Below, one piece after another: positions 13,656-41,488 of a DNA stretch of 43,304 nucleotides. The stretch is from contig JAOXSH010000153.1 of assembly GCA_025800145.1 (NCBI GenBank), positions 1-43,304 on the forward strand. The letters run 5' to 3'. The stretch comes from Cohaesibacter sp. (GTDB lineage: Bacteria > Pseudomonadota > Alphaproteobacteria > Rhizobiales > Cohaesibacteraceae). Made by a program: the position numbers and the translations under genes. A model generated the notes under the pieces. The model was not told where the DNA came from, ran no database searches, and saw only the letters and a list, made by a program, of their open reading frames with translations. Each line of letters starts with the position of its first letter. Within the stretch, counting starts at the first letter, position 1.

Positions 13656-13679
13656 AAAGCCCCGGCGAACCGAGGCTTT
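13656..13679 (-). terminator. Terminator after the antirepressor gene
   Basis: A 10-bp stem with one mismatch (AAAGCC..CGG pairs with CCG..GGCTTT) around a CGAA loop, starting six bases after the stop at 13685. The minus strand continues with CTTTTTATGAGG, so the T run runs directly into the ribosome binding site of the tape measure gene. It would insulate T from the antirepressor transcript. Confidence 0.8.
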
Positions 13680-13684
13680 ATTGA

Positions 13685-14428
13685 TTATTGTTTCCCGCCC
13701 CAGATCAGGGCTATATCAGTATAAAAATAATTTCGCTGACCACTCGGGACCGTTTTATCAATTCCATAAGCGCGGACCCTGCGCCCTATCACCGTCATAT
13801 TAAAAGCAGGCTTGCCATTTGCCTTTGCCCAATCTTCGTACGCTGCGCGCAAATCGGCACTGGCCACAGCATTGCCACGGGCAGGCATGGTGCATTCTGC
13901 CAAAAACTGATTGACCGGGTGATCATCCATTTCCGGTTTTGGTGGTTCGATATAGGGCAAGCCCACCTCATGCCACATGGCTTTGGCCATTTCCTGACCA
14001 AAGGTTAGACGTGCCTCGCGCACCAAAGACAATTTGAGCGATGTTTCACAGATTTCACTTTCAGCCGGGGGCACTGTTGGTGGGTCAACATCATAGTGAC
14101 CGGTTTTGCGGAGCGAGGGCAAAACCTCTCCCGTGACCCATTTACGAAACCGATGTTGCACCGTGCCGGGGGTGACAGCCTTCTGAGAACGGAGAATAAC
14201 AGTATAAAGCCCACCCTCAGTGACATAGAGCACCTCCTGAATACCACCAAGGGTACTAAAACTTTTAGCACCCTTTTCATCATCATCAAGCTTACGCAAA
14301 GCACCCTCTGCCTGCTTTACCTCCAAACAGTTACAAACATCTTTGGCGATGAAACAGAATTCCCCATCTTCCCGCTCAAAAGAGCGCAAGAGATGATCTT
14401 CAAAATCATGCAAAATCATGTTGGTCAT
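13685..14428 (-). CDS. ant: BRO-N antirepressor
   Basis: 247 residues. Residues 5-110 are a BRO-N/Ant domain: FEREDGEFCFIAKDVCNCLEV, the VTEGGLYTVILRSQ motif and FRKWVTGEVLPSLRKTG. Residues 190-228 (DLRAAYEDWAKANGKPAFN then IGRRV..YGIDK) resemble the winged-helix end of this phage's own primase. Proteins of this type bind and inactivate the phage repressor and so trigger induction. The gene overlaps the upstream small gene by four bases. Together they lie behind a C4-like antisense RNA, as icd and ant do in phage P1. It ends in its own terminator. Confidence 0.88.
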   Translation of the reverse strand: MTNMILHDFEDHLLRSFEREDGEFCFIAKDVCNCLEVKQAEGALRKLDDDEKGAKSFSTLGGIQEVLYVTEGGLYTVILRSQKAVTPGTVQHRFRKWVTGEVLPSLRKTGHYDVDPPTVPPAESEICETSLKLSLVREARLTFGQEMAKAMWHEVGLPYIEPPKPEMDDHPVNQFLAECTMPARGNAVASADLRAAYEDWAKANGKPAFNMTVIGRRVRAYGIDKTVPSGQRNYFYTDIALIWGGKQ

Positions 14429-14670
14429 GACGCACGCCCTTTCATCTGATTTTCGCAGGAAAGCAATTCTTGTTCGGCGATTTGCAAACGATCTTCCATC
14501 GCTTGACGCAAGGCCATCACCCCGCGCAAAGGGTGATCGCTCAATTCAACGCAATCAACCACCAAGCCCATGGTAAAAAGACATTCACCAAGCTCAGCAA
14601 TCAAACCATGGACAATGAGAATATAGTCATCTTGAGATGAACTAAGATCAGGAACAGCAGAAAGGGCCAT
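14425..14670 (-). CDS. Small gene in the icd position of the antirepressor module
   Basis: 81 residues from ATG 14670, which has GGAG nine bases upstream. The frame is open back to 14868, and the leader part could encode a longer form starting near 14856. The product is acidic and helical (DDYILIVHGLIAELGECLF, then MALRQAMEDRLQIAEQELL). No domain is recognised. By position it corresponds to P1 icd, the gene between C4 RNA and ant, but sequence similarity to Icd cannot be claimed. It is coupled to ant by ATGA. The ribosome binding site sits in a predicted hairpin. Confidence 0.65.
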   Translation of the reverse strand: MALSAVPDLSSSQDDYILIVHGLIAELGECLFTMGLVVDCVELSDHPLRGVMALRQAMEDRLQIAEQELLSCENQMKGRAS

Positions 14671-14671
14671 T

Positions 14672-14856
14672 TCAAAAAACTCCAGTACGAGTGTTTTAAC
14701 GCCACTCACACAAAGGAGTTTTTCGAGACCCCACTGGTGAGCGGGAGGTCGAAAACCTGCGTACAGACAGGCGGGTTTATTCCCCTCATTGGCCCGCGCG
14801 GGGACGAGGGTATTGTATTCGCCTCCCTCCCGCTCATGGGAGTTTTTGTAACCAAT
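14672..14856 (-). promoter_or_regulatory. Structured mRNA leader with C4 target and masked ribosome binding site
   Basis: The leader carries the sense-strand sequence CTGTACGCAGGTTTTCGA (complement of 14749-14766), which is complementary to two blocks of the upstream short RNA. Nearer the gene, 14715-14726 and 14672-14683 form a 12-bp stem that takes in the GGAG of the gene starting at 14670. Two further stems lie at 14725-14750 and 14821-14841. The arrangement suggests that pairing with the short RNA changes access to the ribosome binding site. Confidence 0.6.
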
Positions 14857-14883
14857 CATGACCACCACAGTCAGAAAAAAGGC

Positions 14884-14947
14884 ACAAAAATACCGCAGGC
14901 TTTCGGGTGCGGTATCCGCTGTACGCCAAGAGGTTTTCGAGCCTCAA
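14884..14947 (-). ncRNA. c4: C4-like antisense RNA
   Basis: A short RNA of roughly 60 bases, starting a few bases after the leftward promoter and ending at an intrinsic terminator: an 8-bp perfect stem ATACCGCA/TGCGGTAT (14890-14897 and 14908-14915), then a T run. The 5' part (14919-14940) can pair with the mRNA leader at 14749-14766 over 10 and 8 bp with a four-base bulge, and four more pairs (GAGG with CCTC) extend it past a bulged C. C4 RNA of P1 and P7 is made from the same transcript as ant and blocks its translation. The match here is in layout, complementarity and terminator; family membership needs an Rfam test. Confidence 0.7.
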
Positions 14948-14952
14948 ATGCA

Positions 14953-15011
14953 AATATGTGTGAATTAGTCAAAAAAGTCAACCATTAGGGGTGGACTTCT
15001 CCACTAGTGGT
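14953..15011 (-). promoter_or_regulatory. Promoter and operators of the C4/antirepressor module
   Basis: On the minus strand TTGACT (14981-14976), a 17-base spacer, then CATATT (14958-14953). Two near-palindromic decamers, CCATTAGGGG (14982-14991) and CCACTAGTGG (15001-15010, perfect), lie 19 bases apart directly upstream of the -35 box. They are good candidates for repressor sites. The spacer also holds half of the operator seen at 7757. The same region must hold the start signal of the rightward genes at 15053, for which no clear -35/-10 was found. Confidence 0.65.
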
Positions 15012-15052
15012 GATTGAGCCTTCACAAACACAATCAACGCAGGAAACACAAA

Positions 15053-15361
15053 ATGCGATATATTTTAATTGCGTTCTTTTACCTATTTACCAATGCCGCA
15101 ACCGCCGACAGCTATGAAATAGCCAAGAAGATTGCCAAGGTCATCGCAGCAGAGCGCATGTGCGGACTAAGCCTCAATGAGCCTGCAATCCAAGCTTGGA
15201 TTGAGCAAAATGTCAAAGCCGACGATATGGAATTTCCTGACAATCTCAGCCTTGCCTTAAGTGGTGCAGAAGATGACCAAGACGAGTTGTCCGACACAGC
15301 GAAAGTTGCTTATTGCAAACAAATCACCCGCGTTGCCAAACATTATAAATTCATGGAATAG
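15053..15361 (+). CDS. Secreted small protein, accessory gene
   Basis: 102 residues from ATG 15053 with AGGAAA upstream; an earlier frame start at 15014 would spoil the signal peptide. Residues 1-19 (MRYILIAFFYLFTNAATA) are a clear signal peptide. The mature part is acidic, with two Cys (in AERMCGLSLNEPAIQ and VAYCKQITRV) that could pair in the periplasm. No named domain is recognised. The gene is on the strand opposite to the tail genes around it and pairs with a membrane-protein gene. A role in the lysogen, such as superinfection exclusion, is a guess from context. Confidence 0.75.
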   Translation: MRYILIAFFYLFTNAATADSYEIAKKIAKVIAAERMCGLSLNEPAIQAWIEQNVKADDMEFPDNLSLALSGAEDDQDELSDTAKVAYCKQITRVAKHYKFME

Positions 15362-15364
15362 CAA

Positions 15365-15649
15365 ATGTCAGAGAACAACGAACAATATGACGAAGACCTA
15401 GAAAAACTAAAATCAGGAATGAGAACTTCGTTCAACATCCTGAAAATTATACCACTTATTTTTGGATTGGCCTGTTGGATATTCGCCGGGATGATTGCAT
15501 TCATCGCAATATCGATGCAATGGCAACAAGGTTTCAACTGGATCACAACAATTGTTGGCTTTATCGGAACAGGCTTTCTCCTTTTTATAGGAAACTTATT
15601 CCTAGCCAGCCTTTTTCTATTTCGGCGAAAGAGGCCGTCCGCAGACTAA
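15365..15649 (+). CDS. Two-TM membrane protein, accessory gene
   Basis: 94 residues, with GGAAT a few bases before ATG 15365 and only three bases after the preceding stop. A charged cytoplasmic start (MSENNEQYDEDLEKLKSGM) is followed by two long hydrophobic segments (about 26-50 and 58-85) and a basic end (FRRKRPSAD). Topology predicts both ends inside. Its last four bases overlap the stop of E' on the other strand. It probably forms a functional pair with the secreted protein before it. Function unknown. Confidence 0.75.
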   Translation: MSENNEQYDEDLEKLKSGMRTSFNILKIIPLIFGLACWIFAGMIAFIAISMQWQQGFNWITTIVGFIGTGFLLFIGNLFLASLFLFRRKRPSAD

Positions 15650-16037
15650 CCAGCCTTTTGTCGCTTTTCAATAATTTCCAGAAACAGGTTCAATTTGCTT
15701 ATGGGCAGAGAGAGCAGGCTATCCAAAGGCCAGCCCGTTCTTTCTGCAATCACAAAAGCAGCCGTGAGCAAATAACGCTCGGTGGGCGTTATTCTGGACG
15801 TGTTTCTGGTGGCATAAAAAGCTGGTTACCACGCTTGACCGCCGCCCAGAAGTCATCACCATGCATTGCGAGAATTTCCTCTTTGGTACGACCCGAAGCC
15901 TTTGCCGCAGCCAATGCGCCCGCTTCGACATCTGTCATATTTTCGACAGATGAAACCTCTTTTAACAAACCGATAATTTCAGCCCCGCTAGGCTCTTTGA
16001 AATCCAGATCTTCAAATTTGATTTGCGTGTCAGTCAT
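15646..16037 (-). CDS. E': Tail assembly chaperone E+E' (frameshift product)
   Basis: A -1 shift late in E joins residue 74 to a second frame that stays open for 56 codons to TAG at 15646-15648, giving about 130 residues. The slip stretch is CTTTTTA (minus strand, 15821-15815). In the -1 frame a TAA lies just upstream of it, so the shift window is only a few codons wide and contains just this slippery run. The E' part reads TPTERYLLTAAFVIAERTGW and then DSLLSLPISKLNLFLEIIE. P2 makes its 142-residue E+E' chaperone in the same way. It probably guides the tape measure during tail assembly. Confidence 0.85.
15789..16037 (-). CDS. E: Tail assembly protein E
   Basis: 82 residues from ATG 16037 with AAAGGA upstream; a longer frame to 16076 runs into the terminator. 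It starts MTDTQIKFEDLDFKEPSGAE and contains LLKEVSSVENMTDVEAGALAAA, typical of P2 gpE/Phage_TAC proteins. It follows tail tube gene FII. The short form stops at TAA 15789-15791, and a fraction of ribosomes should continue into E'. Confidence 0.85.
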   Translation of the reverse strand: MTDTQIKFEDLDFKEPSGAEIIGLLKEVSSVENMTDVEAGALAAAKASGRTKEEILAMHGDDFWAAVKRGNQLFMPPETRPE

Positions 16038-16063
16038 TTCTCTATTCCTTTGTGAGAGATAAA

Positions 16064-16087
16064 AAAGGCGAGCCATTGCCCGCCTTT
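16064..16087 (-). terminator. Terminator-like hairpin between FII and E
   Basis: AAAGGCGAGC and GCCCGCCTTT form a 10-bp stem with one G-T pair around CATT. On the minus strand it is followed by TTTTTTATC. It sits between FII and E and should cut E and downstream expression below that of the tube, or set mRNA ends. Confidence 0.8.
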
Positions 16088-40687: not shown

Positions 40688-41488
40688 ATGCCCGTTAGCA
40701 AAGAAAGCTCCATCGAATGGCTTGGGGACATCAAAGAAAAACTAGGCATCGCCCCCTCAAACCTTGCGCTCAAAATCGGGCTGACCGAGGCAACACTCAA
40801 CAAGGCAGCGCGGCCAACCGCCCCTGAAAAACTATCACAAAAATCCATTCAACTTATTTTACTCTATCTCGAAGAGCTAAAAGAGGCAGACACAAGCCTA
40901 AAACCACACATTGTTAAGTTAGAAGAATTTGCCCGCGAAAAATTTGCGCCCGGAGTAACACGCACAAAACATCGTAAAATAAAGCGGAATAAGTCAGAAG
41001 TTGTTCTCGCGCCGCACATTCGTGACCGCCAATTAGAAGACTTCCATGTCGGACTGATGGATATACCCGTTCGCGGCACGGCAGCCGGGTCTATGACAGG
41101 AGCCATGCAGTTAGACGAAAATGTGATTGAGTTTGTCCGTCGCCCGCCCAGTCTCACCACCGCACAAAATGCTTTTGCCATTTACGTTATTGGCGACAGT
41201 ATGCACCCAGAACACAAAAATGGCGACCTACGCTTTGTCCACCCAGATAGACCACCGAAGCAGGGCGACAGCGTAATTATAGAGACCTACAACCCGTCTA
41301 CAGAGGAAAAAGAGGTCTTTATCAAAGAATTTGTGAAACGATCAGGCAATGAAATCATCTGCAAGCAGCACAACCCACCAGCCGAAGTAAAATTTATCAT
41401 TCCAATTGGCGAGGCCCCTGAAAAAACTGACAAATATGCAATCAGTGTTTTCAAGGTCCTGACCATGAATGAGCTTTTAGGCTATTAG
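40688..41488 (+). CDS. cI: LexA/CI-type autocleaving repressor (S24)
   Basis: 266 residues. An N-terminal HTH lies at about 20-45 (APSNLALKIGLTEATLNKAA). A basic linker follows (90-110). The peptidase half has cleavage site Ala133-Gly134 (GTAAGSM), nucleophile Ser171 (GDSMHPEHKNGD) and Lys213 (FIKEF), so self-cleavage is intact. It should keep the prophage silent and be inactivated by RecA after DNA damage. The antirepressor at 13685 may inactivate it by another route. Only a weak ribosome site precedes ATG 40688, which suits low-level expression. Confidence 0.92.
   Translation: MPVSKESSIEWLGDIKEKLGIAPSNLALKIGLTEATLNKAARPTAPEKLSQKSIQLILLYLEELKEADTSLKPHIVKLEEFAREKFAPGVTRTKHRKIKRNKSEVVLAPHIRDRQLEDFHVGLMDIPVRGTAAGSMTGAMQLDENVIEFVRRPPSLTTAQNAFAIYVIGDSMHPEHKNGDLRFVHPDRPPKQGDSVIIETYNPSTEEKEVFIKEFVKRSGNEIICKQHNPPAEVKFIIPIGEAPEKTDKYAISVFKVLTMNELLGY

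Follow-up and report, generated by a model that had tools for sequence, protein, structure and literature searches.

The window analysed here, the whole 43,304-nucleotide stretch of Cohaesibacter sp. DNA from contig JAOXSH010000153.1, carries phage genes for a tail tube, a tape measure and a gpD-like tail protein, together with a head protein that matches a family of fused major head and protease proteins. Between its tail genes lies a minus-strand module in which, read leftward, a promoter-like site is followed by a short upstream RNA element (U), a second structured RNA (X), a leader segment with the ribosome site (R), a small open reading frame (ORF) and an antirepressor-like gene of the Bro-N type. 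The features of this module are as follows, with the basis of each assignment in brackets.

14953..14981, minus strand: promoter-like site TTGACT-17-CATATT (9 of 12 consensus matches)
14882..14947, minus strand: U, short upstream RNA element (own U model R2, 55.4 bits; the window is part of the model alignment)
14931..14940, minus strand: first target, a part, TCGAAAACCT (sequence and shuffle test)
14919..14926, minus strand: first target, b part, GCGTACAG (sequence and shuffle test)
14890..14915, minus strand: U terminator hairpin and T run (8-bp stem, 14915-14908 with 14897-14890)
14732..14834, minus strand: X, sRNA-Xcc1 (RF02221) RNA, equivalent of C4/CI (cmscan 50.9 bits, E 3.1e-8; fold)
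14759..14766, minus strand: b′ loop segment of X, CTGTACGC (sequence, covariance match, covariation, shuffle test)
14749..14758, minus strand: a′ junction segment of X, AGGTTTTCGA (sequence, covariance match, covariation, shuffle test)
14720..14726, minus strand: second target, a part, TCGAAAA (also within the 5′ arm of the ribosome-site stem)
14685..14689, minus strand: second target, b part, CGTAC (adjoins GGAG 14683-14680; weak in the window copy)
14672..14726, minus strand: ribosome-site stem in R, the leader segment before the ORF at 14670 (folding and relatives)
14425..14670, minus strand: 81-codon ORF in the icd position (no family found)
13685..14428, minus strand: Bro-N antirepressor-like gene (PF02498 E 1.5e-15, above the curated cut-off; phrog_130 anti-repressor Ant E 3.9e-35)
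13656..13679, minus strand: terminator-like hairpin 3′ of the antirepressor gene (sequence)

In U, the a site lies inside a hairpin loop and is followed by the b site and then by the terminator hairpin and its T run, while X consists of an outer stem, a hairpin with an insert relative to the RF02221 model, the b′ hairpin and the a′ junction. The ribosome-site stem has 12 bp (14726-14715 with 14683-14672, one of them G-U), with a folding energy of −32.7 kcal/mol and a z-score of −6.1, and the 81-codon and Bro-N ORFs overlap by ATGA. The original prediction, made from the letters of this DNA, had described a promoter, a short RNA ending in an 8-bp stem and T run, a 12-bp stem over the ribosome site, a small gene and a BRO-N antirepressor, all of which are present in the sequence (the promoter at 14981-14953, the ORFs at 14670-14425 and 14428-13685), the 12-bp stem being real and very stable.

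Identity of the RNA elements

The same prediction took the short RNA, here U, for a C4-like antisense RNA. The C4 covariance model (RF01695), a match to which it had named as its own check, has no match in the window at the gathering score, none at E 10 or better in 14600-15100, and none in the whole own genome, and this absence rules out C4 as the family of the antisense RNA. Likewise, isrK (RF01394) and c4-a1b1 (RF03163) give no match for the upstream element in 14600-15100 at E 10 or better. It is X that belongs to a named family: its match to sRNA-Xcc1 spans model positions 1–87 of 87. The RF02221 cut-off is passed by all 16 related loci that were run against Rfam (17 matches, at least one in each), loci that were chosen because they carry X, and for 14 of the 18 consensus pairs of the X fold a compensatory change occurs somewhere in 43 sequences. 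The own genome holds a possible second RF02221 match at C150:43705-43795 (22.8 bits, or 18.8 bits with our own X model).

The sRNA-Xcc1 RNA is described as an 88-nucleotide RNA in X. campestris, mapped by rapid amplification of cDNA ends (PMC2996969); in E. coli EDL933 it is listed with noncoding RNAs that have little ribosome coverage (PMC5331693), and transcripts of all seven of its homologues are reported from Xylella cells (PMC12189769). Elsewhere it is reported as a virulence-linked small RNA of Xanthomonas integrons and Xylella vesicles, or upstream of symE, whereas in the window it would be the antisense RNA of an antirepressor operon; a search limited to openly licensed literature found no paper tying it to antirepressors. 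A functional mark of the P1 type is an antisense RNA processed by RNase P together with repression of ant. In this respect, an RCC motif stands near the 3′ end of the X outer stem in 73 of 89 loci and an ATG in the 5′ flank of X in 61 of 89, raw counts without a chance baseline that are only hints of RNase P-type processing.

Pairing of X with U and R across the family

In the window, U and X can pair between 14940-14931 and 14758-14749 (10 bp) and between 14926-14919 and 14766-14759 (8 bp) with a four-base bulge, exactly as had been predicted. Pairing was measured as exact two-block matches, a measure that replaced duplex energies, which carry a real signal but are blunt. On this measure the U-X pairing is much stronger than any other in the window, with a score of 17 that none of 1000 dinucleotide shuffles reaches (mean 8.8, maximum 14).

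To place the window within a family, we used loci from a pattern scan of viral contigs, which gave at least 120 stretches; with the window and three phages added, the set held 117 records. Nine of these, with short flanks, were removed and then the duplicates, leaving 89 distinct cores from 108, among them the window, VaK and VHML; L098, L009 and L026 stay in the counts although they resemble chance pattern matches. In most of the 89 loci the b′ loop and a′ junction of X are complementary to one site in U and to another in R. The X-U score is 12 or higher in 74 of the distinct loci, against 5.4% of 6255 swaps between unrelated loci, and the X-R score is 12 or higher in 55, against 2.1% of swaps; moreover, U and R share a word of at least 7 bases in 58 of 89 loci, against 12.7% of swaps. 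Because the loop sequences differ widely between loci, this is covariation and not shared sequence. A further 35 X copies, collected with a covariance model or through similarity, behave in the same way (X-U 30/35 against 7.6% of swaps, X-R 20/35 against 4.1%). This second set comprises 26 of the 29 class loci given to our X model R1 (three were without a match), four plasmid copies and five symE-linked copies; L164 entered it from Rfam only, and the X core of L130 is identical to that of L034 in the first set.

The site in R is placed regularly with respect to the downstream gene. In the 81 loci that have an ORF and score 10 or more in the two-block X-R match, a median of 9 nucleotides separates the end of this site from the start codon; in 65 of them a Shine-Dalgarno-like tetramer begins within the site or next to it. 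Upstream, the promoter-like site taken alone is at chance level (2 sites in the searched stretch against 1.6 expected), but across the family a promoter-like score of at least 9 of 12 occurs within 60 nucleotides upstream of the pairing site in 54 of 74 loci, against 7.7% of shuffles. It could be proposed that the module is nothing but chance structure in ordinary intergenic DNA between tail genes, and both the promoter-like site and the weak X-R pairing of the window, each viewed alone, would fit that proposal. Set against the covarying pairing in 89 and 35 loci, a U-X pairing beyond 1000 shuffles, the Rfam match and the antirepressor genes downstream, this explanation can be given almost no weight.

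Probable control of an antirepressor and its possible logic

The genes that follow X point to antirepressors. Downstream ORFs were found for 84 of 88 cores (the window aside), and the first ORFs of these 84 loci, 14 second ORFs and two proteins from the window make up a set of 100 proteins. Their Pfam matches are Bro-N (22), P22_AR_N (15), Phage_pRha (13), KilA-N (12), AntA (7) and ORF6N (2), 71 antirepressor-type matches in total with overlaps between families not excluded; phrog_245, anti-repressor Ant, alone accounts for 52 of the 100. Among annotated phages, the 3′ end of sRNA-Xcc1 lies about 35 to 40 nucleotides before annotated genes in Aaphi23 (86.1 bits), VaK (65.9 bits) and VHML (45.7 bits, under the cut-off): an antirepressor gene in Aaphi23, the gene for a KilA-N domain protein and then an anti-repressor in VaK, and a Rha-like antirepressor gene in VHML. 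A prophage of E. coli has two RF02221 copies, each standing before a gene for an AntA/AntB antirepressor (one of them marked incomplete), and an Azospirillum plasmid repeats the arrangement of the window, with X, a 72-codon ORF and a Bro-N gene in a 4-base overlap. The Bro-N antirepressor of the window can probably wake the prophage that carries the module, and a CI-like phage repressor, encoded on the plus strand at 40688-41488, is its plausible target.

The order of elements is that of the P1/P7 c4-icd-ant system: promoter, upstream target, antisense RNA, ribosome-site target, small gene and overlapping antirepressor gene. The P1 record runs P c4, a1, b1 (putative), C4, a2, b2, icd and ant1, with icd and ant1 overlapping by 4 nucleotides, and it annotates the a2 and b2 sites, which lie at the ribosome site of icd, as serving to repress translation of icd ant. 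Rfam places C4, c4-a1b1 and isrK (the last below its cut-off) at corresponding positions in P1. Since this order puts U at a1/b1, X at C4 and R at a2/b2, the roles of antisense RNA and leader have to be exchanged relative to the original prediction: its short RNA corresponds to the a1/b1 target, and its leader is sRNA-Xcc1, the counterpart of C4. What survives of the proposed likeness is C4-type antisense control before a small gene and an antirepressor, in the P1 layout; the C4 family and the assignment of RNA roles do not. The segment over the ribosome site, which had been seen as a stem, is in addition the probable second pairing partner of X, and this second target is weak in the window copy and rests on the family. 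Further differences from P1/P7 are that the antisense RNA of the window is sRNA-Xcc1 and not C4, that its small ORF is unlike Icd and that its antirepressor is of the Bro-N type.

Although C4 and X have the same topology (two inner hairpins within an outer stem, with one loop and one junction that do the pairing), our X model R1 recovers C4 in neither P1 nor P4 at E 0.05, and we therefore claim shared topology only, not sequence homology; Rfam places C4 and c4-a1b1 in clan CL00128 and sRNA-Xcc1 in no clan. Searched against 215 kb, the U model (40 sequences) matches marginally in both phages: with 19.6 bits (E 0.04) in the a1/b1 region of P1, and with 19.0 bits (E 0.05) upstream of CI in P4. 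In P4, where Rfam finds isrK, C4 and c4-a1b1 (the last below its cut-off), CI is by Rfam a C4-family RNA, and two same-sense targets, seqA and seqC, are described as flanking it (PMC4825925), as U and R flank X; the P4 record is without a seqA annotation.

We consider it likely that the module is a C4/CI-type RNA switch controlling an antirepressor. In the scheme that we infer for its transcription, its processing, the sign of X (repressor rather than activator) and the role of U, one promoter would give a transcript of U (first target and terminator), X, R (ribosome-site target), the small gene and the Bro-N antirepressor gene, from which X would be cut out or released as a small RNA. X would pair with R through its b′ loop and a′ junction and mask the ribosome site in front of the small gene, an effect that the ATGA overlap would extend to the antirepressor. 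X would also bind U; the short terminated U RNA may soak X up as a sponge, and pairing of X with nascent U may favour the U terminator, a form of attenuation. The antirepressor would thus be off in the lysogen and released when the balance of U to X shifts. The switch may be double-locked in the window and several near relatives, where R folds into a ribosome-site stem of its own as well.

Several observations weigh against this scheme. The RF02221 score of X lies 2.1 bits below the curated cut-off of 53. The X-R pairing of the window, with a score of 11, is reached by 96 of 1000 shuffles, and nested cofolding, a method blind to loop-loop contacts, shows no clear X-R gain (as good in 27 of 150 shuffles for X-R, and in 5 of 150 for U-X); by duplex energies the own partner is best in only 20 of 89 loci for U and 6 of 89 for R. 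R is already locked by its own stem, and X might therefore open rather than close it. In Gifsy-1, moreover, IsrK, in the position of U, is reported to activate its messenger RNA, with the effect strengthened by co-expressed STnc1160 (PMC4825925). Finally, the control of sRNA-Xcc1 by HrpG/HrpX that is reported in Xanthomonas (cited in PMC12444791 and PMC12189769) is unexplained by a switch of this kind. The sign of X is accordingly a matter of balance, in that the weak X-R pairing, the stem-locked R, the blunt energies and the activation by IsrK oppose the support from the ribosome site, from P1 and from b′. We favour repression by X because the target lies at the ribosome site, because P1 is annotated in this way and because the b′ match is kept in six relatives.

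The evidence on the ribosome-site stem bears directly on the opposite logic, in which X would open the stem through its 5′ arm and U, by binding X, would keep the antirepressor off; of the schemes weighed here, this comes nearest to the earlier view of the short RNA as the repressor. The a part of the second target does lie in the 5′ arm of this very stable stem, similar stems are strong in L115, L063 and L034 (z −5.5, −5.7 and −6.3) and present in L108 and L037 (z −3.1 and −2.8), and the dominance of U-X over all other pairing in the window would suit it as well. On the other hand, the stem is weak or absent in L107 (z −1.4), L158 (z −0.1), Aaphi23 and VaK, and in six relatives (L108, L115, L063, L107, L037 and L034, five of them with a stem at z −2.8 or stronger) the b′ loop still has a 7- or 8-base match in the b part of the second target, a match that would be needless if the a part acted alone. 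Together with the annotation of the same arrangement in P1 as repression of icd ant translation, this makes activation by X an unlikely account. The difference between a stable stem in the subgroup of the window and a weak or absent one elsewhere perhaps marks two sub-types of switch.

Gifsy-1 resembles the window in having a short terminated RNA (IsrK), a processed RNA (STnc1160) and a coupled small ORF and antirepressor gene (orf45-anrP), and differs in that the short RNA is described as activating translation (PMC4825925). By analogy with the Rfam matches in P1 and P4, its downstream RNA may be of the C4 kind.

A second alternative follows P4 more closely, with X pairing with the nascent first target and the second target so as to cause premature termination, the ribosome site being incidental. 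CI of P4 is described as controlling the replication genes by transcription termination (PMC4825925), and this differs from the window, where the second target is at the ribosome site. That U ends in a terminator, that its model marginally matches the P4 stretch upstream of CI, and that a word next to the first target recurs ahead of the U T run in 34 of 76 loci, with its complement in between, as would fit an antiterminator/terminator pair, all speak for such attenuation. The repeated word is nevertheless missing in 42 of the 76, and termination alone leaves unexplained the short, regular distance from R to the start codon and the tetramer in or beside R (65 of 81 loci). We regard attenuation as the sole mode of action as improbable; within the C4/CI-type switch that we prefer, it may accompany masking of the ribosome site.

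As for the surroundings of the module, the 81-amino-acid protein has no Pfam match over the cut-off and no PHROG match. Relatives were sought in viral contigs, where eight stretches fit a pattern and none was confirmed, and the comparison with P1 Icd (12 aligned residues, E 0.046 as a single comparison) was taken as no similarity. Two small plus-strand ORFs at 15014-15649 (115 and 94 amino acids) lie between the module and a tail gene at 15789-16076; they oppose the tail genes, and the first matches phrog_27886 (unknown function). In VaK the module is annotated among tail genes, on the opposite strand. Relatives of the tail genes of the window were found at E 1e-4 in none of the other loci compared, which says little on the location of the module in other phages because most of these loci are only 1 to 15 kb long. 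On a Pseudomonas aeruginosa plasmid (L159), an sRNA-Xcc1-like RNA and a BRO family gene adjoin a mercury-resistance operon.

sRNA-Xcc1 beyond phages

The RNA was also followed outside phage genomes, where we took loci from only part of the RF02221 class-genome matches and SymE matches and, in the 1.4-Mb genome G094, all 13 listed matches. SymE occurs in 17 of 398 sampled genomes of the phylum, and sRNA-Xcc1 lies upstream of symE in 4 of 30 SymE loci, in one of them (L185) twice. The three segments fit fully in L185 (U 14, R 13) and fairly in L164 and L174 (U 13 and 11, R 11 and 11), with a weak fit in L184 and in the second copy of L185. In agreement with these loci, sRNA-Xcc1 has been reported ahead of symE in integrons of Xanthomonas (PMC12444791). 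SymR has a match at E 0.05 in 9 of the 30, eight of the nine below the SymR cut-off, and C4 and isrK match upstream in two of the 30, L171 and L182 (isrK below its cut-off); the classical C4 module thus also stands before SymE.

In the class to which the window belongs, RF02221 matches 44 of 289 genomes at E 0.01 and scores above the cut-off in five of the 289. The 13 copies of G094 (L193-L205) differ in their loops, and the X-U score of a copy is the best of its row in 12 of the 13, the X-R score in only five. By eye, ten of the 13 precede similar small proteins starting [YF][DN]I..QF..LL, two of which were scanned and had no Pfam match; one further copy stands before a Bro-N gene, one before a 44-codon ORF, and for one no ORF was found. 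These 13 modules may set which of several related small proteins is made. In G021 and G073, sRNA-Xcc1-like matches of 28 to 35 bits (L207, L209, L210 and L211) are followed by a prepilin-like protein (by eye), two cysteine-rich secreted-looking proteins and a PD-(D/E)XK protein, and in L209 and L210 a terminator-like hairpin, seen by eye, comes directly after X.

Comparison of the loci suggests that, at its root, the sRNA-Xcc1 family is an antisense switch of the phage type, with further uses before toxin genes and others. A broader reading, to which we give about even chances, is that sRNA-Xcc1 constitutes one class of phage-born, rewritable RNA switch, built of target, antisense RNA and target and reused by hosts, and is not a virulence regulator at heart. 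Its reuse before SymE toxins, including those of Xanthomonas integron cassettes, and the 13 parallel modules in a 1.4-Mb genome would both be part of this: because the loop and junction change freely while the frame stays, copies would be mutually blind and hosts could have reused the switch.

Within the study of small RNAs, a named but unexplained family would thereby gain a concrete mechanism and a target. The sRNA-Xcc1 RNA would act on the ribosome site of the adjacent gene and not mainly on distant virulence genes, published predictions of its targets become testable, and its position upstream of symE would be explained. The module further suggests that switching of the C4 type extends beyond that family. 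U is an additional upstream RNA element, one that had no Rfam match in this analysis, and the sRNA-Xcc1 loci offer a natural collection of RNA switches that appear orthogonal to one another.
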